Virus record (IMG/VR): IMGVR_UViG_3300021963_000680
Location: 1-23,160 of that record
DNA length: 23,160 nucleotides
Source of the DNA: a virus
Direction: 5' to 3' (one strand)
Below are positions 4,419-22,263 of the stretch, piece after piece. The translations under genes and the position numbers were made by a program. A model generated the notes under the pieces. It did no database searches and had not been told where the DNA came from. It worked only from the letters and a program-made list of their open reading frames with translations. Position 1 is the first letter of the stretch, and every line of letters starts with the position of its first letter.

Positions 4419-5490
4419 TAGAACCTCCAAAAATTTGTTCTAAGATTGATGGGTTTGATGGGTTAGCCCCTAATGCTTTATTATTTATTAATGCATCACG
4501 GTTAGAGAAATTTAAACCTTGTTGCCTTTGATTTGCAAATTGAGCTCTACGATATGCTTCTTGATTACGACGATCCATTTCCATTTGTCTCATGCGATCA
4601 ATTTCTGATTGAGGTACTTCTCCCATTTGCATAGGACGTGGCCCTGTTGTAGGTAATCCACCACGTACTCGACGACCATCAGCATATCCAATACGACCAC
4701 CATGTTTAGCAAATACTGACTCTGTATCAGCTACAGGTTGTTGTTGGGTATTTGCTCCAAACGGAGCTGTTTGACCACTAAAGAATCCTGCAGTAGGGCC
4801 AAAATCTTTTTGAGTAGCTATGTATTGTTGATATGCAGAAGGTGTAGTGAATTGTGTTTTAGGAGTATTAACACTACCTAAAATATTAGCGTAGTTTGAA
4901 ATACCAGCCCATGGAGCATTTAAAAGATTAGCTTCCCCTGCAGTACCTACATTGGCTGCATTGACAGCACCAGTAGCTGCATTAATACCTGATTGTTGAG
5001 CTTGGTTCCAAGCATTAGCTTGATTCGTCGCCAATGTATTTACAGCATTACCACGTGCAATATTACTTGCTGTAAGACCACGAAGACCACCAAAGTTACC
5101 AGATGCTATACCAGCTGCATCAGCTTGTGCTTGAACATCTGGTAATTGAGCATTAAGTAAGTTTTGTTGGTTTTGGAATAAGTTACCTAATGGTGTTGCT
5201 GTATTAGCTTGACCATTTGGAAGCCATGGATTAGCAGCATTACCAGCAATAGTATTTAAAGTATTGACTGACTGACCTACAGCACCTTGTAATAAAGCAT
5301 TAGCATTTGTAGCACCTGTCGTTCCTTGATTAGCTTGTTGATTTAGTATTTGAGCGCCGTAGTTAGACAGTCCTTGAGTGGCTTGATTATACCATTCAGG
5401 TAATTGTGTGGTTGTGCTTTGTGAATAGTACGAACTAGGATCTGTGCCTAATGTTGTTGATTGTACCGGATTTCCAAATTCGATGGCCAT
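4405..5490 (-). CDS. Probable internal virion protein, Ala/Asn/Gln-rich
   Basis: 361 residues. The first 250 are dominated by Ala, Asn, Gln, Thr and Gly (for example ANQGTTGATNANALLQGAVG, NTLATNQANAWNQAQQSG) with heptad-like hydrophobic spacing, so a helical, coiled or low-complexity virion component is likely. The central ASGNFGGLRG segment resembles motifs seen in phage internal virion proteins. A basic linker with HGGRIGYADGRRVRGG sits at about 260-285, followed by a charged Arg/Met/Gln helix (about 290-320). TAATG coupling from the preceding gene, with AAGGAAG a few bases before the start. I infer an ejection or tail-interior role from composition and neighbours only; no enzymatic domain is visible. 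Confidence 0.65.
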   Translation of the reverse strand: MAIEFGNPVQSTTLGTDPSSYYSQSTTTQLPEWYNQATQGLSNYGAQILNQQANQGTTGATNANALLQGAVGQSVNTLNTIAGNAANPWLPNGQANTATPLGNLFQNQQNLLNAQLPDVQAQADAAGIASGNFGGLRGLTASNIARGNAVNTLATNQANAWNQAQQSGINAATGAVNAANVGTAGEANLLNAPWAGISNYANILGSVNTPKTQFTTPSAYQQYIATQKDFGPTAGFFSGQTAPFGANTQQQPVADTESVFAKHGGRIGYADGRRVRGGLPTTGPRPMQMGEVPQSEIDRMRQMEMDRRNQEAYRRAQFANQRQQGLNFSNRDALINNKALGANPSNPSILEQIFGGSNGNN

Positions 5491-6596
5491 TATGCTTCCT
5501 TAGCTTGTTTAATATATTCTAGAGGGCTTTTTGCATCTTCTGGCAATTCACCATCTGGGGATTGTCTATCATGTCTAACCATTTTTAAAAACTGATCTAG
5601 TCGTTTAGCGCCAGCTTCATTACTTCCATTACCTAATCCTGATACTACATCAGCAGGGATTACAAATTCACCATTAGATAACATAGCAGGTACTTCATCA
5701 GATGTACCGTCACCTTGACCGCCTACATATAAGTTTTGTAAACCACCTTGACTCATGAACTTTGGTTGTTGTGAAGGCTCATTATAACCAATGCCACCCA
5801 TAGGTTCCATCAAACCACCATCAGCTGCACGCGCTGAAATGAATTGAGGCATTTGAATTTGACGACCACGTGTTACACCAGTATCAAAAGGACTTCCACC
5901 AGGATATGTTAACTCTGATCCTGTATTGGAATCAGTTGGTGTGTTAGCTGTTGGAGCTGATGAAGTTCTAGGTGTTGGTGATGTACCTCCGCCTCCTCCT
6001 CCACTAGTGGTTGTTGAATATGGAGATTTATTTGAGGGATTAGTTGTAGGTGCAGGTGTAGGAGTGCTTGGATACACAGAACTTGCAGGATCATAAAAAT
6101 CAGCAGGATTATAAGTTGGAACAGCAGGCGCAAAATAGTCCCAATATGATGATTGAGTTCCTGGGTTCCAAGAATTATAATATTCATATGGTGATACAGC
6201 ACCAATATAGCTATAATCAGGCACATAGTTGCCATAAGTATCCCAAGATCCTGTATAAGGAGAATAGTTTTCGGTATTGTAATATGCAGGATCGAATTGA
6301 TTATTGTAGTAAGGATTATCTGCTAAATCAGCCGCATTATAATCAGGTTGATAGTAGTCATAAAAGCTACTATTACTGTAAATAGGATCATATGAATAAG
6401 TATCTCCTGTACTATAATCATATCCAGTACCTAAATCATAGCCATAGTTATTACCATAATAAGGAGTGTCGTAGCTTGATCCATAGCCATAATCGTTATA
6501 GTTAGTTGTGTAAAATGGGTCGGAATAGTCATATCCTGACCAGTCCCAAGTAGAACCCCCATCATCAAAGTACGATAAACCTGCTTTTTTCTTCAT
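5490..6596 (-). CDS. Virion protein with Tyr-rich low-complexity N-domain and conserved C-domain
   Basis: 368 residues with three parts. Residues about 9-175 are an extreme low-complexity region of Tyr, Asp, Asn, Ser, Gly and Pro, with about 39 Tyr by hand count (roughly one residue in five), in units such as GYDYS, NYGYD and FYDYY. Residues about 175-240 are a Thr/Ser/Pro/Gly linker with a run of six Gly. The C-terminal about 110 residues contain GGQGDGTSDEVPAMLSNGEF followed by VIPADVVSGLGNGSNEAGAK, a pattern I recognise from virion proteins encoded beside ejection proteins in many podovirus-like genomes. It follows a gap holding a promoter-like motif and has AAGGA at 6603-6607, 6 bases from the ATG. 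It heads the ejection-protein segment. The function of the conserved C-domain is not known to me. Confidence 0.7.
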   Translation of the reverse strand: MKKKAGLSYFDDGGSTWDWSGYDYSDPFYTTNYNDYGYGSSYDTPYYGNNYGYDLGTGYDYSTGDTYSYDPIYSNSSFYDYYQPDYNAADLADNPYYNNQFDPAYYNTENYSPYTGSWDTYGNYVPDYSYIGAVSPYEYYNSWNPGTQSSYWDYFAPAVPTYNPADFYDPASSVYPSTPTPAPTTNPSNKSPYSTTTSGGGGGGTSPTPRTSSAPTANTPTDSNTGSELTYPGGSPFDTGVTRGRQIQMPQFISARAADGGLMEPMGGIGYNEPSQQPKFMSQGGLQNLYVGGQGDGTSDEVPAMLSNGEFVIPADVVSGLGNGSNEAGAKRLDQFLKMVRHDRQSPDGELPEDAKSPLEYIKQAKEA

Positions 6597-6605
6597 ATGA
6601 AATCC

Positions 6606-6628
6606 TTATACTATATATCTAATTACAC
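6606..6628 (-). promoter_or_regulatory. Promoter- or operator-like motif upstream of the ejection-protein segment
   Basis: On the - strand, GTGTAATTAGA (6628-6618) is followed by TATA and then TAGTATAA (6613-6606), which runs directly into the ribosome binding site of the 368-residue gene. The same 11-mer and 8-mer occur, 2 bases closer together, at 21144-21164, in the only other sizeable gap of the block. It could be a phage RNA polymerase promoter, a host-type promoter (TTGCGT, 16 bases, TATAAG) or a regulator site. The shared, gap-restricted placement is the evidence; the kind of site is inference. Confidence 0.5.
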
Positions 6629-6634
6629 GCAAAA

Positions 6635-6892
6635 TCACCTAGTTTGTGCCCCATTTACTGCTAAAGTAAATGCACTTGCCCAATCTTCCCAGTTTTGAAA
6701 ACCGTCTCCTGATGGGACGTTATAAGATGACCAAACAGGGTTATTTACCAAAACATTAGCCACCGTAGCCCACTCTTCCTCAGGCAATATAGGAATGTGC
6801 TGTTGAGAGAAGTAGTGGACTAAGTTGGCATTCCATTGTTCCCAAGTCGAATGGCTTGGGATAAAGTCTAAATTAACGGGTACTCTAGGCAC
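6635..6892 (-). CDS. Small Trp-rich protein with GTG start, unknown function
   Basis: 85 residues, unrecognised. The start is assigned to the GTG at 6892 because an AGGAG at 6899-6903 lies 6 bases before it; the frame extends further to a TTG at 6913, but that codon has no ribosome binding site. With this start it overlaps the nozzle-like gene by 8 bases. The product is acidic to neutral and has six Trp (WEQWNANL, EEEWATV, NPVWSSY, NWEDWASAF) and no membrane segment. Lying between the nozzle-like gene and the ejection proteins, it may be a small tail or assembly component, but nothing in the sequence proves this. It ends the segment before the 38-base gap with the promoter-like motif. Confidence 0.7.
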   Translation of the reverse strand: MPRVPVNLDFIPSHSTWEQWNANLVHYFSQQHIPILPEEEWATVANVLVNNPVWSSYNVPSGDGFQNWEDWASAFTLAVNGAQTR

Positions 6893-10962: not shown

Positions 10963-13908
10963 TTAATTAATAATAAGAATGTCTTTAATAGAACTCGGTT
11001 GATAAGCATTTCCAATTACAGCAGATGTATAATCAAATGCTGCAGTTGAATGCGTAAATGTTAAATTGTTAATATATCCATAGCTTGAATCTACATAAAC
11101 AGGACCTCCTAATGTGGCTCCCGGAATTTGCAATCTTGAAATTGCATTTGGTCCTGAAGATCCTCCTGTAGTAGTCATTGTTAAAGATCCTGAAGTTGGG
11201 TTTCCGGCATATAAAGTTAATGTGGATCCAGAAAATGATGTAGATCCTGTATCAAACATCAATATAGTATTATTAGAATTATCCGTTGTAATTGTATATG
11301 ACGTAGCCGCAGGACCATTCCAATTAGCTGTTAATACATCAGCGATGGCTTGAGCTCTATCCGAATTTAATTCATTAGGTTGAAGAACTAAATTAAGATT
11401 TAATGCAGTATAAGTAGTCGAAACAGGTCTAATAAAAGACCAATATGCTACTGGAGCAGGCGCTAAATTACTTCCTTGAGCTAATGTTGATACGTAATAT
11501 TGTAAAGTCCTTACATTATATTGACCAAGAACAATGGTGTATGTATTGTCATTATTTTGATTTACGTATTCCGGTACAAGAGGATTAGTTCCATAAGTAA
11601 ATCCTAAAACTTTATTTTGAGTAGTAGATCCATTATCCAAATAATATAAATAATTTTTTACGGGATCAGTAATAACATAATAATTTTCTTTTACAGTAAG
11701 TAATAATTTAGTGTCTGTTATCAATACATCAATTGTATATGGTCGTGTAACAGCTGGATCATCAATAGTTATGGTAAATGTTAAAGTATTTAAATCATAT
11801 ATAAAATAATTTCCTATAAACACAACAGTTGATCCCCAATTATAAAATCTAGCAACTGGAGTTTCATAATTATTTACTCTTGGATTTCCAGCACCAAGAT
11901 AAGGATTTGACGGAGGATAGGTAATAAACTCTGTACTGTTAGGATGAATAGCAAGTAATCCATAAACTAATGAAACATAATATGTATTATTTATATAACA
12001 ATTATATAAATAAAAAAGATTAGTATAAGGAGATAGTCCAGAATTCTCGTCTGAACGTATCACTTCCATTATTCTGACGGTAGTAGCGGGGGTGGTACTG
12101 AATCTTACATATTGAGGTGTATTACCAGCAACTCCTAACTTATTTGCTACAATATCATAAAAACTAAACTGACCAACATAGCCGGTAGGTGAAAAACCAT
12201 ACAAATAATATACATCATTACCAAGATAATAACTTTTACAAATAAGCGACTGTCCATATTTTACTGGAGTTCCATTTCTTGTAGTGACATAATATTTTCC
12301 AGCTTCTATTGTAACAGTAGACCCATCTGGAAACGTTGCACTGTAATTTTTAGTTACATAATATTGATCAACTCCTAGATTTAAATATATAGTTGTTCCT
12401 GCAGTAATAATAAGAGTTGATTCTGTTGTCACCATTGAGGTATTTACTCTAACTGTTTCTGTAGTTATCCCTGTTGAAGAATTCCAAGATATATCAGTTT
12501 TTGTAAACCAAGTCATGCCTTTTGCTGGAACGCTACCACTATCTGAATATCGAGAAGCAAGAGGAGCAGTAGGGCGTTCAAAATAGGCATTTAGTGTTCT
12601 TGAATACGATCCAGTTCCTGCTCCATTGGTAGTAAGGTTATAATTATAAGCTACTGGAGTCCATGTCATCGAAATCTCAATTATTTGAGACCCACTGAGT
12701 GGTTGTGGGGGTACAATAACATCAGCAGCAACAGTGGCTACTGCAACAAATGTAGTACCGGTTCCGGTTTCCCTAAATGAAAATTCACTAGAATAATTTA
12801 GATTAGGTGATTGATTTCCATGAAAATTCGGATCTGGATCTAAAGCTGCTGTTGTTGCATTTCGCAAACCCTTAGGTGGGGCATTTCCAGGTTGTGTTGT
12901 AACAAATGTACTAGAAGCACCAATTTGTAAATCACTTGAAAGATTAAATACTAAAGATTCTTTGGTATTGTCTCCGGCTGTCCAATTAATACTAGGTGGT
13001 CCGCCTCTATCTGCAGGATTTAAAGGGTCTTCATTTGTAGCACGTCTAAATTTTTGTGGTAAAGTAACACTATCACCCTTAGCATTAGTAATAACAATAT
13101 CAGAATCTACTGTAGGCGTATCTTCAGAAATAGAAAGTAAAATATCATTTTGAATTAGATCATGAGGTATGATATTAAGAATTGTTTGAGGCACACCCCC
13201 AATTGTTACAGAAATCGTAGCGGTTGTTTGAAGACTTAATAAATTAGAAATTTGAACTTGTTGTCCAGCTTCAGCTGCAGTTGCTGAAATAGTTCCATAC
13301 AAACTATAATTTATAGGATATCTTGCAAAATAGTTAGGTACAGAAAGGGGATATGATAATTCAGGACTATTAATGTATACTGTTGATCTATTATCTGCAT
13401 CATAGTTCATATTTCCTTGAACTACAAACTGTATATTTTGAGGATTAGTAGCTATGTTAGAAACTGTAATTCCATCAATCGTTACAGAAGAACATGTAAA
13501 CGTTCCTTGAGGACCATTCTTTGTAATAAGTGATCCCATACTAACTGTATTACCAATATATGCTGATTGAGCAGGAGTAATTTGTGCAATAACTACCGCC
13601 GTTGGAGGTATATTTCCATTTGTTGGTCTAGGATTTGGAATATCAGGAATTGGATCTCCTGAAGCTGGATTGTAATTTGTTGTTGTATAATAATCACTAA
13701 AATCGACAGGGTTGTTAGTACCAATTGTTGTTGGGATATTTAAATTGTATATAGTATTAGGAACATAGGATCCCCCTCTATTATATACAGAGATTAATAT
13801 TGAATTTCCTGGACCCCCATATACATTAGGAATAGAAGCATAACTAGGGTAGGCACCACCTAGTCCTAGTACAATCGGTCCTTGATTAGAAAATCTTAAA
13901 TTAGCCAT
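10963..13908 (-). CDS. Tail spike/fibre paralog A
   Basis: 981 residues, a close relative of the gene at 14802-17819. Residues 1-76 (NLRFSNQGPIVLGLGGAYPS..., VYNRGGSYVPNTIYN, DFSDYY) are nearly the same in both with no length change; this is probably the virion attachment part. Residues about 100-330 contain two Ig-like segments, the second resembling IPT/TIG domains (SDIVITNAKGDSVTLPQKFR). Residues about 330-825 are beta-rich and poorly conserved between the two, except short blocks such as ARFYNWGSTVVFI. Residues about 826-981 are again conserved (TYTALNL, RAQAIADVLTANWNGP, YTITTDNSNNT, VYVDSSYGYINN). No lyase or hydrolase active site is recognisable. Its start overlaps the stop of the 294-residue gene (TAATG). 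It likely helps in host attachment, which is inference from architecture. Confidence 0.75.
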   Translation of the reverse strand: MANLRFSNQGPIVLGLGGAYPSYASIPNVYGGPGNSILISVYNRGGSYVPNTIYNLNIPTTIGTNNPVDFSDYYTTTNYNPASGDPIPDIPNPRPTNGNIPPTAVVIAQITPAQSAYIGNTVSMGSLITKNGPQGTFTCSSVTIDGITVSNIATNPQNIQFVVQGNMNYDADNRSTVYINSPELSYPLSVPNYFARYPINYSLYGTISATAAEAGQQVQISNLLSLQTTATISVTIGGVPQTILNIIPHDLIQNDILLSISEDTPTVDSDIVITNAKGDSVTLPQKFRRATNEDPLNPADRGGPPSINWTAGDNTKESLVFNLSSDLQIGASSTFVTTQPGNAPPKGLRNATTAALDPDPNFHGNQSPNLNYSSEFSFRETGTGTTFVAVATVAADVIVPPQPLSGSQIIEISMTWTPVAYNYNLTTNGAGTGSYSRTLNAYFERPTAPLASRYSDSGSVPAKGMTWFTKTDISWNSSTGITTETVRVNTSMVTTESTLIITAGTTIYLNLGVDQYYVTKNYSATFPDGSTVTIEAGKYYVTTRNGTPVKYGQSLICKSYYLGNDVYYLYGFSPTGYVGQFSFYDIVANKLGVAGNTPQYVRFSTTPATTVRIMEVIRSDENSGLSPYTNLFYLYNCYINNTYYVSLVYGLLAIHPNSTEFITYPPSNPYLGAGNPRVNNYETPVARFYNWGSTVVFIGNYFIYDLNTLTFTITIDDPAVTRPYTIDVLITDTKLLLTVKENYYVITDPVKNYLYYLDNGSTTQNKVLGFTYGTNPLVPEYVNQNNDNTYTIVLGQYNVRTLQYYVSTLAQGSNLAPAPVAYWSFIRPVSTTYTALNLNLVLQPNELNSDRAQAIADVLTANWNGPAATSYTITTDNSNNTILMFDTGSTSFSGSTLTLYAGNPTSGSLTMTTTGGSSGPNAISRLQIPGATLGGPVYVDSSYGYINNLTFTHSTAAFDYTSAVIGNAYQPSSIKDILIIN
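13681..13908. repeat. Paralog repeat, copy A (5' end of spike gene A)
   Basis: These 228 bases align without a gap to 17592-17819. They encode residues 1-76 of the two spike paralogs and include identical stretches such as TAATCACTAAAATCGACAGG. The two copies lie in the same orientation about 3.9 kb apart and could support homologous exchange. Confidence 0.85.
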
Positions 13909-14792
13909 TAGCTAACACTCATTGAATATACATAGTTAGGACCAGATACCATGGTTAAACTACCATAGGAATCTATGCCTGTGACTGCAAAAGAATTCCA
14001 ATTAGATCGAGGTGTCATACCATCAGACTCAAAAGCAAATGGATTAGCCTTATAAGTAAACTGTGTGAAGTTACGAGTACCGGCAACCACAGGTAAAAGA
14101 TTAGGCCATCCAGATACACCAATAGAACTACCAGGAGCACTTGTACCCATTGGGAATACAAATACTCCTACTGAGGGTGAAGTCATTCCAGGTGCTGCTG
14201 TTTGAATAGAAGGTAACACCCAGTTATTAGAAATAGCTTGTGTTTGAGAATCTATAAAATAAGGTGTAGAAGATTCAGCTTTAGTACTTTGATTAAGTAC
14301 TGCAAAAGTACCATTAGTAGTCAACCATACTAAATCCTCCCAAACACCAAAACCTGTATCAGTTGCAGCTGATGTTTCTACACCTCGTAATCCTTGTTTA
14401 CAACTGGAAGCATTAGATAAACTAGGGTCAATCACATAAGAAGATCCTACAAGAACATCATTAATATATTGAAGTCTAATAAACATCATGCCTGACGATG
14501 CAGGCGTTGCAAAATATTTATATACGTTACCACCGGATGCAAAATAGCCTGCAAATAATAACGCAATGTTATTCGTTAAAAATGGGAATGTGGCAAACCC
14601 CGTAACAGTTTCTACATACGTTTGTGTGATTCCATTGCCATATGAAAAGCGTCCAGATTGATGCGTACAATAAACCGTACCGTCATTAGAGATAGTAAAA
14701 TCTACTACATCTGTGACATTAGAATATGTGGGAGCTGCTACAAAATTAGCTCTTGTAGATAGTCTTCCGTTTTCGTTAATAATAGTTGACAT
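13908..14792 (-). CDS. Beta-rich virion protein between the two spike paralogs
   Basis: 294 residues, not recognised. The sequence is strongly beta in pattern with repeated short blades (TISNDGTVYCTHQSGRFSYG, LTNNIALLFAGYF, NDVLVGSSYVIDPSLS, EDLVWLTTNGTFAVLNQSTK, NLLPVVAGTRNFTQFTYKAN), suggestive of a small propeller or beta-sandwich. It has two Cys at most and no signal or membrane segment. AAGGAAATATT precedes the ATG. It is sandwiched between two paralogous spike genes with one-base or ten-base junctions, so it may be a spike partner, assembly factor or adaptor, or a former part of the duplicated unit. The function is unknown. Confidence 0.65.
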   Translation of the reverse strand: MSTIINENGRLSTRANFVAAPTYSNVTDVVDFTISNDGTVYCTHQSGRFSYGNGITQTYVETVTGFATFPFLTNNIALLFAGYFASGGNVYKYFATPASSGMMFIRLQYINDVLVGSSYVIDPSLSNASSCKQGLRGVETSAATDTGFGVWEDLVWLTTNGTFAVLNQSTKAESSTPYFIDSQTQAISNNWVLPSIQTAAPGMTSPSVGVFVFPMGTSAPGSSIGVSGWPNLLPVVAGTRNFTQFTYKANPFAFESDGMTPRSNWNSFAVTGIDSYGSLTMVSGPNYVYSMSVS

Positions 14793-14801
14793 AATATTTC
14801 C

Positions 14802-17800
14802 TTAAATAAAAACTACATCTCGTTTAATAGAGGTTGGGGTATAATTATTTTGTACAACAGTTGATGTTGAATCAAAGCCATCATAGTCATGTGTAAATGT
14901 TAGAAAAAATGATCCATTATTCACATATCCATAAGACGCATCTATATATACCTGATTTTGAGCACCCATTACTGATAATCGAGTAATATTCGAATTAGTA
15001 CTAGAATTACCTCCTGAAGTAACCATTGTAAATGTACCCGCTGTAGTTGATCCTGTTTGAGCTAAAGTAGATCCTGATATTACAATGGAATTGGTGTTAA
15101 AATCCAATACAGTATTACCTGAGTTATCCGTTGTAATAGTATATGTTGGTGTAGTAGGTCCATTCCAATTAGACACTAATGCACTAGCTACAGATTGAGC
15201 TCTTTGAGCATTAGTGTCTGTAGGTGATAATGATATAGGTAAATTAAGTGCTGTGTATGTAGCAGACGCTGTTCTATTAAATGTCCAGGATACAGTAGGT
15301 GGATAGCTTAACAAATAATTAGACAATTTACCTGTAAGTGTTCCGCCTAGACTATAACTAAAAATAAGATCAGAAGTTGTGCTATTTGGATTTAATTTTA
15401 TAAAATATTGACCTAAATCTGGAAATGAAAAAGTAGGTACTTGAACCGGCGTAAATGATCCCGTATTAAGATAATATCCCACTGAACGGCCAATATTAGA
15501 GTCATAATTAGTAAATACTAATCTGTCATCATCTATAAAAGATGGGGTATAATCTTGTCCTGTAAAATAAGAGTTTCCAACAGTTAATTGATAATTTGTT
15601 AAAGTGCTTAAATCCGTGATATAAAATACGGTATTCCAAGATATAACAACAACTGTTGATCCCCATTGATAAAATTTTCCTGCATATCCAGTTTTACTAA
15701 ACACAGATGAAGTAGTAGCACTATAACTAGAACGTGTAAAACCTGTAAAACTATTATCTGTGTAATTAAATGGAAGACCATATGACGATATAAAAAATTT
15801 ATTATTATATGATACCGTAAATACACCCCAACTAGTTAAGGGTAATGCAGGACCACTAGAAGGATTCGTAGTGCTAGTAAATAAAACTGGAAGATTATAG
15901 TTAGTTAGATAATTTGTTGAAGCCCCAGCATTTATTCCATTATTCCATCTCATTACATAAGGACTTGGAGCTCCTGGTGTTGAAGACCCATTGTTTAATT
16001 TTGGTTTCCAAAACATTAAACAAGATTCTCCATTACCTAGATAATTAAATCCATATATAAGATAAGTTTCTGTGTCTGTACTTAAAGGATTAGTGTATTT
16101 AATTGCTCTTATTGGATAAAATCCAGTGTAATTTAATATAGGCACACCTTTATACGTAGCATATGATGTATAAGTTCCAACTGGTACTGTTCCAGGGGTA
16201 TAGACTGATCCTCCAAATCCATATGATATAGATACTCCATCAGAAAATGTATAAGGTCCAACAATATTATTTGGTGGAGCAGAATCTGTATAAGTTTGAA
16301 CAAACCAATAGACAGGAGTATTTACCGCAAATAATGTATAATCAAAAGTAATATTTGCAGGCAATGTTAAATTTGCGTCAAAATAGTTTTCATCCGAACC
16401 AGATAAATATCCTACAGTTGTTTTAGAAGCAACAGAATTGGAATATTTAACAGTACCAAAGGATGTTGAAGTCGATAAACTTGTTCCTGTAGCCGCATAT
16501 AAACCCACATACGCTGTTGAATAATCTATATTAGATGCTACATGAGATCTAAAATACATTCTTACAGCCCAAACACCAGCCATTGTTCCATTTGGAATAA
16601 TAACAGCTCTTGTCAAAACCCCTACTTGAACTAAAGATGTAGTATCAGCAGCACCTTGAAATGTCGTGTCAGCATCAAAAATTGTAGAGTTATTTACAAC
16701 TAAGAAATCATTACTGAGTGGCTGGGATTGTTGATTGCCATATCCGCCTCCAGGATCTAAATTAGATGATGTATAATTTCTTTGAGTTTGATTAACAGTA
16801 TACGTGGCTGATGGATACGATGTTCCATTTGTAAATGCTAAATTACTAGAAAATGTAAATATCAATCTTTCTGGCAATTGTTCTTGTGCTGTCCAATTAA
16901 TGTTTGGTGGAGGTCCACGATCAGTTGGATCTAATGGATTGTTTGTTGATCGTTTAAATTGTTGCGGTAAAGTGACACTATCACCTTTTGCATTAGTAAT
17001 TACTATATCAGATTCTTCAGTAGGGGTTGCTTCATTTATTACAATCAAAATATCGTTTTGAATATTATCATGCGGTGTAATACTTACAATCGTTTGAGCT
17101 ACACCACCAATAGTAATGGTTGGCTGTGGGTCAGTTTGAAGACTTAATAAATTAGATATAAGAACATTCTGTCCTGTCATAGCACTTGTATTAGATATGG
17201 TGCCATATAAGCTATAATTAATAGCGTATCTTGCAAACCACTTAGGTATATTATACCCTCCTGATAATCCAGTGATGTTTAATAATACATCAGATCGATT
17301 AGAAGGATCATAGTTCATACCACCTTGGACCACAAACTGTATGTTTTGCTGATTTACCGCCGTGTTAGCAGTTGTGATACCATCTACAGTTACTGACTGA
17401 CATGTATAAGGATTAGTAGATCCTACACCTTTTGTAGTCAAAGATCCTACATTTACTGTGTTGCCAATATATGCTGCCTGAGGGGCTGATATATTAGTAA
17501 CAAGGGTTGAATCAGGATGAGGATCTGGTGTTGGGGTAGGTCTTGGATTAGGTATAGGTGGTACAGGAGTTGGACCTGGATTATAATTGGATGTCGTATA
17601 ATAATCACTAAAATCGACAGGATTACCAGTGCTAATGGTGGTTGGTATGGTTTGGTTGTATATCGTATTAGGAACATAAGATCCTCCACGATTATATACC
17701 GAAATTAAGATTCCTTGAGTAGGTCCTCCAAATACGCTAGGTATAGACGCATAGCTAGGATAGGTTCCTCCTAATCCTAGCACTATAGGTCCTTGATTGG

Positions 17801-17819
17801 AGAATCTTAAGTCTGCCAT
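14802..17819 (-). CDS. Tail spike/fibre paralog B
   Basis: 1005 residues with the same plan as the gene at 10963-13908: attachment-like N-terminus (1-76), a Pro-rich linker (PGPTPVPPIPNPRPTPTP) longer than in A, Ig-like plus IPT/TIG-like segments to about 330 (SDIVITNAKGDSVTLPQQFK, PPPNINWTA), a divergent beta-rich middle (about 330-845), and a conserved C-terminus (845-1005: ATYTALNLPISL, RAQSVASALVSNWNGP, YIDASYGYVNN). In the middle only short blocks correspond, such as GKFYQWGSTVVVI. The different middles with fixed ends suggest that the two proteins occupy the same virion site type but recognise different surfaces. Coupled to the upstream beta-helix fibre gene by TAATG. No catalytic residues are identifiable. 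Confidence 0.75.
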   Translation of the reverse strand: MADLRFSNQGPIVLGLGGTYPSYASIPSVFGGPTQGILISVYNRGGSYVPNTIYNQTIPTTISTGNPVDFSDYYTTSNYNPGPTPVPPIPNPRPTPTPDPHPDSTLVTNISAPQAAYIGNTVNVGSLTTKGVGSTNPYTCQSVTVDGITTANTAVNQQNIQFVVQGGMNYDPSNRSDVLLNITGLSGGYNIPKWFARYAINYSLYGTISNTSAMTGQNVLISNLLSLQTDPQPTITIGGVAQTIVSITPHDNIQNDILIVINEATPTEESDIVITNAKGDSVTLPQQFKRSTNNPLDPTDRGPPPNINWTAQEQLPERLIFTFSSNLAFTNGTSYPSATYTVNQTQRNYTSSNLDPGGGYGNQQSQPLSNDFLVVNNSTIFDADTTFQGAADTTSLVQVGVLTRAVIIPNGTMAGVWAVRMYFRSHVASNIDYSTAYVGLYAATGTSLSTSTSFGTVKYSNSVASKTTVGYLSGSDENYFDANLTLPANITFDYTLFAVNTPVYWFVQTYTDSAPPNNIVGPYTFSDGVSISYGFGGSVYTPGTVPVGTYTSYATYKGVPILNYTGFYPIRAIKYTNPLSTDTETYLIYGFNYLGNGESCLMFWKPKLNNGSSTPGAPSPYVMRWNNGINAGASTNYLTNYNLPVLFTSTTNPSSGPALPLTSWGVFTVSYNNKFFISSYGLPFNYTDNSFTGFTRSSYSATTSSVFSKTGYAGKFYQWGSTVVVISWNTVFYITDLSTLTNYQLTVGNSYFTGQDYTPSFIDDDRLVFTNYDSNIGRSVGYYLNTGSFTPVQVPTFSFPDLGQYFIKLNPNSTTSDLIFSYSLGGTLTGKLSNYLLSYPPTVSWTFNRTASATYTALNLPISLSPTDTNAQRAQSVASALVSNWNGPTTPTYTITTDNSGNTVLDFNTNSIVISGSTLAQTGSTTAGTFTMVTSGGNSSTNSNITRLSVMGAQNQVYIDASYGYVNNGSFFLTFTHDYDGFDSTSTVVQNNYTPTSIKRDVVFI
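17592..17819. repeat. Paralog repeat, copy B (5' end of spike gene B)
   Basis: Gap-free counterpart of 13681-13908, same orientation. Differences are mostly at third codon positions, so the copies are not recent but remain similar enough for the protein ends to be nearly the same. Confidence 0.85.
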
Positions 17820-18744: not shown

Positions 18745-19794
18745 TTAAAGGGTGTAGTAAGAAATATTGGGTTGGAAATAGATAGGTGACTTATCTCGGT
18801 CTTCATCAGCTGCTTCAACAAAGAGTTCACGCGCCATGTTTTCAAGATACACGACTCTGTTTAAATCCGTACCATGAAGTTGAAGTGATAGAAGATGAGA
18901 TAGTTTAGCTTGAACGTATGGAATCCAACGATCAGGAATAGCTAATTGGTTTGTTAAAGTGCCAACATCATACATTTGATATTCAAGCACTAATTGGAAA
19001 ATCTGTGTATCGTCTTGTGGTACTGGCCAAATATCCATGATAGGAGTTAATTGGCGATCAAACCAATATTGTAAACCACGATCACTTACAAAGTCTTTAT
19101 TAGGAAGATTAAAATAATCATCACGGTTAAGTCTTGCCAATGGAATGTCTTGTTGCACATTAGCTAGATTTACAGCATAAGTTTTAACTGCTGTAGTTCC
19201 AGCATTTCTAAGTCTCCAATATGGTGTATTAGGAGATGAGTCAATTTGAATATAACCCCAGTTGTTTTGAGGAATGTTCTTAATAATGGTGCCAACAGAT
19301 GACCATGTCACATTATCATAACTTGCTTCTAATATAAGCTGATCTGTTGTGCTGTATGAATAAAAGCCTGCATTAAGAAGGGTTGTGTTTTCTGAATAAG
19401 TAGCTAATAATGATGCGCCAGGTAGAATTGTATAACTCACATCAGGCGTTACAGTTTGAACAGAGAATATATTATTAGGGTTTTGATTTGGTGTTGTAGG
19501 TGTTTGTAAACGGTAGTTCGCTTCTAAAACATCTGTCGTGCCAACAGGTAAGTAGAGTTGACGCGTATTACGCATACCACCCACCACTACATATTTAAGC
19601 AACCAAAGATTAACACCCTTATTTGATAACTGCATAAGCAAATAGAATAACGCTTGCTTAGCAGCTAACGTTAATTCAGGTGTGATCTCTTCAGCGTATC
19701 GACCTGCGTCACGAAACGCGTAGTCGATCATTTGTTGGACGTTGACTTTGGTTAAGCCAACGGTGCCGGATGTTCCAGTTAATGAACTTGCCAT
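18745..19794 (-). CDS. Adaptor/connector-like virion protein with inserted beta domain
   Basis: 349 residues. The first about 100 (QQMIDYAFRDAGRYAEEITP, LMQLSNKGVNLWLLKYVVVG, YLPVGTTDVLEANYRL) and last about 135 (LPNKDFVSDRGLQYWFDRQL, IMDIWPVPQDDTQIFQLVLE, IPDRWIPYVQAKLSHLLSLQ) together have the helix/beta/helix rhythm of head-tail adaptor or tail-tubular proteins. Between them, about 115-210, is a beta-sandwich-like insert (DQLILEASYDNVTWSSVG, NNWGYIQIDSSPNTPYWRLR) reminiscent of galactose-binding-like domains. The family is common in phage genomes as an uncharacterised virion protein. Coupled to the 49-residue gene by TAATG with AAGGAAAAAAT before the start. The connector role is inferred. 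Confidence 0.65.
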   Translation of the reverse strand: MASSLTGTSGTVGLTKVNVQQMIDYAFRDAGRYAEEITPELTLAAKQALFYLLMQLSNKGVNLWLLKYVVVGGMRNTRQLYLPVGTTDVLEANYRLQTPTTPNQNPNNIFSVQTVTPDVSYTILPGASLLATYSENTTLLNAGFYSYSTTDQLILEASYDNVTWSSVGTIIKNIPQNNWGYIQIDSSPNTPYWRLRNAGTTAVKTYAVNLANVQQDIPLARLNRDDYFNLPNKDFVSDRGLQYWFDRQLTPIMDIWPVPQDDTQIFQLVLEYQMYDVGTLTNQLAIPDRWIPYVQAKLSHLLSLQLHGTDLNRVVYLENMARELFVEAADEDRDKSPIYFQPNISYYTL

Positions 19795-19943
19795 TATTTT
19801 TTCCTTGCAGTTTTTGCCGCTTGTTTAAATTGAGCTGCGGTAGGTGCGCCTTTACTACCGGGCTTTCTCATATGTTCGCCTGAACCGGCTTTAATACGTT
19901 CGCGTTTAGCATGAATTGCATCATACAATCCTGGTTTTTTCAT
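19794..19943 (-). CDS. Small basic phage protein, 49 residues
   Basis: 49 residues: MKKPGLYDAIHAKRERIKAG, then SGEHMRKPGSKGAPTAAQFK, then QAAKTARKK. I recognise this as a widespread small phage protein type (LYxxIHAKRxRIxxGSGExMRKPGSKGAPTAxxF) of unknown function. It is very basic, with no hydrophobic core. Its ATG overlaps the TGA of the HNH gene (ATGA) and its TAA overlaps the ATG of the 349-residue virion gene (TAATG), so it belongs to the structural operon. It is short enough to be missed by standard gene callers. A nucleic acid or virion assembly role is possible but unproven. Confidence 0.85.
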   Translation of the reverse strand: MKKPGLYDAIHAKRERIKAGSGEHMRKPGSKGAPTAAQFKQAAKTARKK

Positions 19944-20437
19944 TTATAAGCCCCTACATTTAAATTTAATTGATCATCACCTAAAAATTTAGCAACCGAT
20001 GAACATAAATTATAAAAATCTTCATATTTAAAATTTGATTTCATTCTATTAATTGCTTGACATACTAAAATTGTATTATCTTTAGTATATCCAATGCCAC
20101 TATTTATTCTTTCTATGGATACAGTATTTAACTGTCCAGCTTCTAAAGTCATTTCTATTCCTGAATAAGCACAAGTTTGATATTGAGTATTCCAACAATT
20201 AACAACATCATCTATAGTTAAACTGAATTCATGATTTCTTTTAATAGCACTTTTTCTAGCATTTTGTAAAAAAACTCTAGCTCTTGTTTCTATTTTTGAG
20301 TTTGCTTTTGCTCTGGACTTAATATTTCCAATTGTACAACATGCTTTACACCAACTATGTAAACCATCTGGTGTTTGTGAATGTTTAAAAAACAAATCGG
20401 TAGACTTTGTTTCTTTACATTTAAAACAAGATTTCAT
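19940..20437 (-). CDS. HNH-type endonuclease, probably mobile
   Basis: 165 residues. An N-terminal zinc-finger-like CxxC-x22-CxxC (Cys 4, 7, 30, 33; SCFKCKE and SWCKACC) is followed by a basic helical linker (41-70) and an HNH-like core: CAYSGIEMTL (from 89), VSIERINSGIGYTKDNTILV (106-125), then CQAINRMKSNF. This layout matches phage HNH nucleases of the SIDRID...GYxxDN type, in which the first HNH His is not conserved; Asn 121 is the central residue. The start at 20437 is chosen because it gives an ATGA overlap with the previous stop and has GGAAG upstream; a longer frame begins at 20452 without a binding site. Much more AT-rich than its neighbours. It interrupts a chain of small basic genes, so a free-standing homing endonuclease is likely. 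Confidence 0.8.
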   Translation of the reverse strand: MKSCFKCKETKSTDLFFKHSQTPDGLHSWCKACCTIGNIKSRAKANSKIETRARVFLQNARKSAIKRNHEFSLTIDDVVNCWNTQYQTCAYSGIEMTLEAGQLNTVSIERINSGIGYTKDNTILVCQAINRMKSNFKYEDFYNLCSSVAKFLGDDQLNLNVGAYK

Positions 20438-20685
20438 GATCCACACTTCCATCTTTTTAATGATGCAGCCTTACGTGTAGGTTTACCATTCTCGTCTTTC
20501 ATAGGACCAGGCATACCAGACATTCTAGCGCAAAATGATTTCTTACGTGGACCACCTTCAGGTTGTGGAGCTTTTAAATTAGAACCTGTCTCGCGATTAT
20601 ACTTTGCTCGACCTTTAGCAGTCAAACCTGCACCTTTCGATGTTGGTAGTTTTTCACCACGACCTACAGATAATTTAACAGCCAT
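20434..20685 (-). CDS. Small basic phage protein (DUF6321-like)
   Basis: 83 residues with the pattern GAGLTAKGRAKYNRETGSNL, KAPQPEGGPRKKSFCARMSG, then GPMKDENGKPTRKAASLKRW. I recognise this as a common small phage protein family, which I believe is DUF6321; the name should be confirmed by search. The function is not known. It is basic, Gly-rich and has two Cys (SFCARM, KRWKC) that could bind metal. TAATG links it to the preceding 46-residue gene, with AAAGGTAAAT before the start; its TGA overlaps the HNH start. Its presence next to virion genes suggests a structural or packaging-related role. Confidence 0.85.
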   Translation of the reverse strand: MAVKLSVGRGEKLPTSKGAGLTAKGRAKYNRETGSNLKAPQPEGGPRKKSFCARMSGMPGPMKDENGKPTRKAASLKRWKCGS

Positions 20686-20825
20686 TATTTACCTTTCTTT
20701 TTAGCCGCTTCTCTTTTAACTGAGTACGCAATTGCCACGGCTTGTTTTTGGGGTTTACCAGCTTTTACTTCAGCACGAATGTTTTCAGAAAAAGCTTTCT
20801 TTGATGTTGATTTCTTTAAAGGCAT
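20685..20825 (-). CDS. Small Lys-rich phage protein, 46 residues
   Basis: 46 residues: MPLKKSTSKKAFSENIRAEV, then KAGKPQKQAVAIAYSVKREA, then AKKKGK. The core SENIxxEVKAGKPQKQAVAIAYSVKR is a frequent short phage protein of unknown function. It is strongly basic with a likely central amphipathic helix. TAATG overlaps on both sides (with the 100-residue gene before it and the 83-residue gene after it), plus GAGGAAAAAAT before the ATG, make it a real gene despite its size. Confidence 0.85.
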   Translation of the reverse strand: MPLKKSTSKKAFSENIRAEVKAGKPQKQAVAIAYSVKREAAKKKGK

Positions 20826-21127
20826 TATTTTTTCCTCGCTTTATATTTAGTAGCTTTGCCACCTTTTTTCATAGTGCAGCCACCAGATTTAAGATTCTTT
20901 AACTCAGTAGCTTTTTCGCCACCATGTTTAGCACGGTCATGTAATGTCATAGCTTTCTTAATAAGTTTCTTATCTTGAGCTACATCTTCTGACATAGCAA
21001 GACCACCTTTTTTAAAGCCTTGACCTTGTGATACACCAGGGTGGCTACCGCCCATACCTGGATCGATATCATCAACCTTTTTATTACCACCACGCTTATA
21101 TACTTTACCTGCGATGCATGCTGACAT
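20825..21127 (-). CDS. Small Gly/Lys-rich basic protein, 100 residues
   Basis: 100 residues, not assigned to a named family. Starts MSACIAGKVYKRGGNKKVDD, then a Gly-rich part (GMGGSHPGVSQGQGFKKGGL), a charged helix (EDVAQDKKLIKKAMTLHDRA), and a Lys/Gly-rich tail ending KKGGKATKYKARKK. Three Cys-bearing or Gly-rich spots (SACIAG, SGGCTMKKGG) suggest low-complexity or nucleic acid-binding character. AAGGAG lies 6 bases before the ATG. It is the first gene after the 58-base gap with the promoter-like motif, so it may lead the long structural transcript. The TAA is coupled to the 46-residue gene. Confidence 0.75.
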   Translation of the reverse strand: MSACIAGKVYKRGGNKKVDDIDPGMGGSHPGVSQGQGFKKGGLAMSEDVAQDKKLIKKAMTLHDRAKHGGEKATELKNLKSGGCTMKKGGKATKYKARKK

Positions 21128-21143
21128 GCTATTCTCCTTATTG

Positions 21144-21175
21144 TTATACTACTTCTAATTACACTCAAATTACAC
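21144..21175 (-). promoter_or_regulatory. Promoter- or operator-like motif with tandem 11-mers
   Basis: On the - strand, GTGTAATTTGA (21175-21165) and GTGTAATTAGA (21164-21154) are immediate tandem copies differing at one base, followed by AG and TAGTATAA (21151-21144), then the ribosome binding site of the 100-residue gene. The second 11-mer and the TAGTATAA are identical to those at 6606-6628. A G/C-rich patch and T-run (AGGCGCTTTTTT) lie just upstream at the end of the endolysin gene without a clear hairpin. This marks a likely transcription start or regulator-binding region for the structural operon. Confidence 0.55.
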
Positions 21176-21185
21176 AAAAAAGCGC

Positions 21186-21746
21186 CTATAATTGCCCTAA
21201 AAATAAAGCCTTTTCTGCTTGTCTTCTTGCTCTTAAACCTTTTTCTACTGCAGTTCCAGGGCTAATCCAACGACTTGCAGATTCAATAGCTCCATGATAG
21301 TCGCCACGATTAAGTTTCTTTAATGCGGTAGATGATAACCACTTTCCAGGGCCTAGATTATAAACCCAGCAAGTAAGTGCATCTTCTTGATTTTGATTTA
21401 AAGGTACTTTAACTGTTTTTAATAAAAACGCATTATATGGAATAAGCTGTTTTAATAAAAGACGATCGGCTGTTTCTCGATCAATGACTGTATCTTTTGT
21501 GACTGGATGTCCATCAATAGTTGTAAAACCCCAGCCTACAGTCCATAAAGGGGTATGACCATCTAGATATGCTTTAGATCTAAATCCTTCAAATCTCTTA
21601 ACTATATTGACACAGTTTTGGGAATACATAAGCTCATATGCTTCGTTTTGTAAGGCATCTTGCGCCAAAGAAATATGAAAGAACAAACCCAATAACGTCC
21701 ATAAACAGAGGAACCGCCAGTAATTCTGACTTGAATGCAGCTGCAT
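21186..21746 (-). CDS. Endolysin, GH24 lysozyme with signal peptide-like N-terminus
   Basis: 186 residues. Cleaves the peptidoglycan glycan chain to release progeny. The T4-type catalytic set is visible: Glu 53 (KRFEGFRSKAYLD), Asp 62 and Thr 69 (WTVGWGFT), with the usual spacing. Further family marks are LNQNQEDALTCWVYNLGPG and RRQAEKALFLGQL. Residues 10-28 (WRFLCLWTLLGLFFHISLA) form a hydrophobic segment with one Arg before it and a possible signal peptidase site after SLA, so export by Sec or a signal-anchor form is likely. The start at 21746 is backed by AGGAG (21756-21760, 9 bases away) although it overlaps the holin gene by 113 bases. Met 40 at 21629 lies just after the holin stop and could give a shorter cytoplasmic form. 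It is the last gene before the 58-base gap. Confidence 0.92.
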   Translation of the reverse strand: MQLHSSQNYWRFLCLWTLLGLFFHISLAQDALQNEAYELMYSQNCVNIVKRFEGFRSKAYLDGHTPLWTVGWGFTTIDGHPVTKDTVIDRETADRLLLKQLIPYNAFLLKTVKVPLNQNQEDALTCWVYNLGPGKWLSSTALKKLNRGDYHGAIESASRWISPGTAVEKGLRARRQAEKALFLGQL

Positions 21747-22041: not shown

Positions 22042-22068
22042 GATTTAACTCCTTATTATAACGCATAT

Positions 22069-22263
22069 TTATAAGACCTTCAATATCATTTCTAAAATTT
22101 TAGGATTTAAAGCAACAACTAATACCATTACAATCATAAGCATACGTTCAACCTTATCGATTTTCTTTTGAAACCAATCTTGTCGTTCGATGATATGATT
22201 GTAACGCTCTACGCACACGGCTTCGTGTACGGAGAGCTTTTTATCAAGTTCCTCTAAGTTCAT
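22069..22263 (-). CDS. Small coiled-coil and membrane protein of the lysis cassette
   Basis: 64 residues. The first about 40 are a charged, heptad-like helix (LEELDKKLSVHEAVCVERYN, FQKKIDKVERM); residues about 41-58 are one TM segment (LMIVMVLVVALNPKILEM). This layout recalls XhlA-type lysis accessory proteins (N-terminal helix, C-terminal TM), which interact with holins. The similarity is in layout only. GGAG lies upstream within the end of the fibre gene, and one base separates the two genes. It may be an antiholin, second holin or spanin-like factor; the sequence does not decide. Confidence 0.7.
   Translation of the reverse strand: MNLEELDKKLSVHEAVCVERYNHIIERQDWFQKKIDKVERMLMIVMVLVVALNPKILEMILKVL

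Follow-up and report, generated by a model that had tools for sequence, protein, structure and literature searches.

Late transcription of phage T4 depends on gp55 and gp33, which were described as a split sigma (PMC2988020). The −10 reading part is carried by gp55, while gp33 sits at the place of region 4, and the host sigma is replaced; gp33 has no sequence-specific DNA binding, the late promoters are described by the −10 element only, and the sliding clamp serves as activator (PMC2988020). In Bacillus subtilis, SigO-RsoA is a two-subunit sigma with domains 2 and 4 on separate cooperating proteins (PMC8103513, PMC10141391), and these two reviews disagree on which subunit carries which domain.

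We analyzed a linear virus record of 23,160 bases (hereafter, the window), a fragment without the early region. Its plus strand carries the 3′ end of a DNA polymerase gene, and its minus strand carries the late block with endolysin, virion structural and ejection-like proteins. The elements GTGTAATTAGA and TAGTATAA occurred together in exactly two copies in the whole window, both on the minus strand, and shuffled sequence gave 0.00 full motifs. Of the gaps in the leftward block, the two largest (6597-6634 and 21128-21185) contained one copy each. The original prediction had described these as the only sizeable gaps; a smaller third gap, of 27 bases, is found at 22042-22068. It had also stated that there was no other copy, which is correct for the full motif; a third box with one mismatch, GTGTAATTTGA, was overlooked at 21165-21175, where it adjoins the right copy, and the right site carries an 11-base tandem duplication. 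Comparison with related phages, described below, resolved the two sites into the following features.

6606-6628, minus strand: left copy of the motif, exact, GTGTAATTAGATATATAGTATAA
6644-6651, minus strand: left −35-like element GGGCACAA, with GGGC at 6648-6651, located within the 3′-terminal part of a 92-aa gene
6621-6628, minus strand: left −10-like element GTGTAATT, an exact copy of the box, from column comparison
6614-6615, minus strand: TA after the left box, from column comparison across lineages; start predicted near 6613
6597-6613, minus strand: predicted left leader TAGTATAAGGATTTCAT, with an AAGGA ribosome binding site at 6603-6607
5490-6596, minus strand: gene that opens the ejection-like segment, with a 368-aa product whose C-terminus is homologous to a 1418-aa protein of the related contig G001
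21144-21164, minus strand: right copy of the motif, exact, GTGTAATTAGAAGTAGTATAA
21190-21197, minus strand: right −35-like element GGGCAATT, with GGGC at 21194-21197, placed 22 bases ahead of the distal box
21179-21186, minus strand: weaker −35-like sequence GGCGCTTT, 22 bases upstream of the proximal box
21168-21175, minus strand: right distal −10-like box GTGTAATT, overlooked in the original prediction
21157-21164, minus strand: right proximal −10-like box GTGTAATT, an exact copy, from column comparison
21150-21151, minus strand: TA after the proximal box, from column comparison; start predicted near 21149
21128-21149, minus strand: predicted right leader, with an AAGGAG ribosome binding site at 21134-21139
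20825-21127, minus strand: first gene after the right promoter, 100 aa, with a homologue in relatives

Judged from sequence, these sites are probably late-operon promoters that would be read by host RNA polymerase with a two-protein phage factor of the sigma-70 family. The larger protein, with regions 1.2-3, would read the −10-like element, and a region-4-like protein of about 97 residues would read GGGC.

The window virion proteins were approximately 42-54% identical to those of several IMG/VR contigs. One of these contigs, G001 (52.5 kb), has the motif as ATGGGTA-N8-TAGGA, with four copies that all lie in gaps. One copy follows the major capsid gene, two others precede the homologue of the 100-aa gene and the ejection gene, respectively, and the fourth stands on the opposite strand, ahead of a small terminase gene. 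A weight matrix added a fifth site after terL. Two of these sites are exactly the two positions of the window, thus the presence of only two copies in the window segment is what the relatives predict. The homologue of the 100-aa gene follows a matching promoter in G001, G006, G007, L011, G050 and others. Diverged IMG/VR phages had their own lineage-specific motif at the same two gene positions and also before other late operons. The argument for regulation, which was originally drawn from placement in gaps, is strongly supported by these lineage-specific versions of one architecture at the same positions in diverged phages. The 8.1-kb contig L003, from metagenome 3300021962, showed 98-100% protein identity to the right end of the window and has the same right promoter.

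Scanning IMG/VR with the bare DNA pattern gave 28 stretches in 26 contigs. Besides G001, three contigs had the motif directly upstream of the homologue of the 100-aa gene, one of which (L113) was near-identical to G001; the remaining hits were about as many as expected by chance by our estimate. In G001, the product of the gene upstream of terS is a protein of 97 aa, and a search with its sequence gave 51 loci. Each of them carried GGGTAATT-N5-TAGG before terS, and none was found in reversed sequence. The five-base spacing was kept at the 97-aa-gene loci even when the pattern permitted three to eight bases.

The common architecture consists of a −35-like GGGC, 17-19 bases, a −10-like GNNTWAKT, five bases and usually a TA at the presumed start. 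The upstream GGGC belongs to the motif unit at both sites of the window, although it had been overlooked at first. When sites were aligned by the box, every one of the 22 distinct sites in the G001 lineage had GGGC at exactly 22 bases upstream; GGTC replaces it before many terS genes. GGGC also accompanied other boxes, namely TGCATAAGT in G043 and TGCATTAGT in L011, G049, G050 and G051. In the TGCAT lineages it was found at −22 in 29/76 box sites, where the next commonest offset had 8 and the background was 0.5% per position. As for the second element, TAGTATAA, its TA is fixed across relatives but the remainder is not conserved. The difference in spacing between the two copies (2 bases closer on the right) need not matter, because TA lies five bases after the box in ungapped register in both; a model of two elements with variable spacing was replaced by this fixed register. 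A terminator hairpin was also considered as a conserved element and rejected, since the seeming terminator stems beside the motif are partly the GGGC element itself.

The consensus GG[GT]C-N17-19-GNNTWAKT, built without the window, matched the window only at 6651 and 21197, that is, in the two gaps. The shuffled window had on average 0.79 matches anywhere, and there was no match in the motif-less related phages W01 and W02. With a weight matrix trained without the window, the left site ranked first and the right site third among about 46,000 positions; the absolute scores of the window sites in the lineage-free matrix were not above the best shuffle scores. The lineage-A matrix did not detect the window sites, while the lineage-free model and the short consensus did. 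The shuffle comparison of absolute scores counts against the promoter reading, as do a left spacer that exceeds the usual length in the relatives by one base and the duplication at the right site. There, the distal box has the good GGGC and the proximal box the good TA, so that one of the boxes or both may be used.

The start would be located about seven bases after the box, near 6613 on the left and 21149 on the right. In the G001 lineage, TATA is followed directly by the ribosome binding site GGAG at several sites, therefore the start in this lineage is expected at or before GGAG. At terS, five phages have a hairpin that begins one to three bases past the predicted start, and its sequence differs from phage to phage. 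In L254, L255 and L258-L261, a tRNA-Thr (TGT) gene takes the place of the hairpin; it separates the late promoter from terS and starts a few bases past the predicted start. The hairpins and the tRNA gene, beginning right at the predicted start, support its position. The original prediction had objected that a host-type promoter would remove the ribosome binding site, which rested on taking TAGTATAA as the −10 element. Because the −10-like element is GTGTAATT instead, a left start near 6613 keeps AAGGA in the leader TAGTATAAGGATTTCAT, and this objection to a sigma-type promoter is removed.

Candidate readers of these sites were found in the relatives. A protein of the sigma-70 family that has regions 1.2, 2 and 3 but stops before region 4 is encoded by G015 and by 12 further contigs. 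Pfam Sigma70_r2 and r3 were above cut-off in G015, G049, G052, G043 and L259, and the G015 protein matched phrog_351 with an E-value of 1.2e-31. No match to region 4 reached the cut-off on the same chain, and the proteins end just after region 3. The truncated sigma was present in all lineages covering the place of its gene, including distant ones, in which it was 36-54% identical; most contigs of the clade members lacking a sigma match end at or near the expected place.

The 97-aa protein, with 370 relatives in IMG/VR, is the candidate partner. Weak matches to Sigma70_r4_2 were obtained in 9 of 17 diverse members (best E-value 0.0036, with no match shown to pass the cut-off). A first structural model had a pLDDT of 60 and its matches were set aside; in a second model, made from a more diverse alignment, the domain from about residue 40 had a mean pLDDT of 84-92 per block. 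Aligned with structures of sigma region 4, residues 35-97 of this model reached Z values as high as 9.0, and Z was 8.8 for sigma-E region 4 bound to −35 DNA, whereas Foldseek alone gave E-values above 0.1. As modelled, the partner of about 97 residues has a region-4 fold. Neither the truncated sigma nor the 97-aa partner was found in the complete genomes of W01 and W02, thus the motif and the sigma pair are present together in the clade and missing together outside it. The window, being without the early region, contains neither gene in its 23 kb, and its phage presumably encodes both. This counts against the proposed reading, as does the weak sequence similarity of the partner to region 4. 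No relative of the partner turned up among the genome contigs scanned, so no host is named here.

It is unlikely that host RNA polymerase reads the sites with sigma-70 or an alternative sigma of the host. A −35/−10 layout at 17-19 bases is of the kind read by bacterial sigma factors, and the outgroup G009 has sigma-70-like promoters. However, no TTGACA/TATAAT match at 16-18 bases was present on the coding (minus) strand at either site; the one host sigma-70 match, at 21121-21150 overlapping the right gap, is on the plus strand. Moreover, the box varies by lineage within one phage clade while the layout stays constant, and it co-occurs with the phage sigma.

It is very unlikely that the sites bind a phage activator or repressor and that the true promoter lies elsewhere. 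The tandem boxes of the right gap, at 11-base spacing, would suit a dimeric regulator, but GGGC, box and TA recur at fixed spacing in many copies. In addition, there is little room for another promoter between the terminator-like sequence that immediately precedes these elements in several relatives and the ribosome binding sites that immediately follow them.

The preference of the original prediction for a phage polymerase promoter was not supported, although the window is itself a fragment. A T7-like or N4-like polymerase of the single-subunit type, initiating immediately after TATA, could account for the compact motif of the G001 lineage, which ends in CTATAGGA and apparently has its start directly after TATA. 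The proposed search of the rest of the genome for such a polymerase or a sigma factor, carried out on relatives, yielded the sigma but not the polymerase: PF00940 was absent from G001, G015 and the other clade contigs searched, while the T7 positive control was detected. The five bases before TA differ between the copies, a −35-like element lies 22 bases upstream, and related promoters lack the CTATAGG ending, which makes this explanation highly improbable. A chance repeat in AT-rich gaps is scarcely credible, for although single boxes with two mismatches are frequent in the window, the full motif is absent from shuffles, the two positions are promoter sites in independent phages as well, and the consensus built without the window selects exactly these two gaps.

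Within the promoter reading with a two-protein phage sigma, two classes were distinguished. Promoters of G043, G049, G050 and G051 were assigned to genes with tblastn. GGGC was present in 17 of 17 promoters before the packaging, capsid-proximal, tail, ejection and terS operons. The box occurred without GGGC in 16 of 16 promoters before the genes of primase, exonuclease, ssDNA-binding protein and DNA polymerase and the partner-gene region; these include G049 8770, which is on the replication side with no assigned gene. For the difference between late and replication promoters the Fisher value was 8.6e-10, relatedness ignored. Two GGGC sites just past the polymerase gene in G050 and G051 were left out of both classes, and lysis promoters had GGGC in 0 of 3 cases. 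In G050, L273 and L277, a box-only promoter was located approximately 39 bases upstream of the partner match.

The presence of GGGC in 17/17 late but 0/16 replication promoters of the TGCAT lineages suggests a two-step sigma. The large subunit alone would drive −10-only promoters, those of the replication genes and of the region-4 gene itself. The region-4 protein, on arrival, would add −35 reading and turn on the late promoters that bear GGGC. Taken together, large subunit first and partner later, a sigma assembled in two steps might act as an infection clock, a tentative proposal for which we put the chances at somewhat below even.

Several other features of the window were noted. A host-type promoter match (TTGAAG-N17-TATAAT, 10/12) at 22055-22083 on the minus strand immediately precedes the genes of the holin-like protein and the endolysin; lysis might therefore be under a separate promoter. 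Two proteins of about 1000 aa (10963-13908 and 14802-17819, minus strand) share a nearly identical N-terminus, MA[ND]LRFSNQGPIVLGLGG; they had no PHROG match and by appearance are paralogues of an adhesin-like or appendage type. The late block also encodes, at 19794-20452 (minus strand), a small basic protein together with one that is HNH/endonuclease VII-like, and similar genes are located in the terS operon of G043 (14551-15209), as if the block had moved.

The intergenic repeat thus leads to a late-transcription system that can be put to the test, in a phage clade that is uncultivated and has hundreds of IMG/VR contigs, and provides predicted operon starts and a promoter consensus for annotation. 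It would also be a natural case for separating both the sigma halves and the promoter halves, by which the contribution of region 4 to promoter choice becomes directly testable.

Caulobacter phages RW, GB2A, RLK and KcrB and Caudoviricetes sp. MW202545 have homologous virion genes in the same order as the window. Unlike the motif-bearing relatives, RW and MW202545, the two that were searched, had neither the promoter consensus nor the sigma pair. In RW, two genes after the helicase (28942-29642) resemble, by eye, OmpR-type DNA-binding and GcrA-like proteins and sit at about the place of the G001 region-4 protein; they are possibly another late regulator.

No description of this sigma pair was found in the open-access literature searched. 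Compared by description only, SigO-RsoA is alike in that sigma domains are split over two proteins; unlike the phage pair, it is cellular and stress-related and is not a phage late switch. The likeness to gp55 and gp33 of T4 is that for late genes a pair of small phage proteins takes the place of the host sigma on the host polymerase, as we propose here. Unlike in T4, the late promoters of the clade carry a conserved −35-like GGGC at 22 bases upstream from the box; in addition, regions 1.2, 2 and 3 can be recognised in the large subunit, and the model of the partner shows a region-4 fold.
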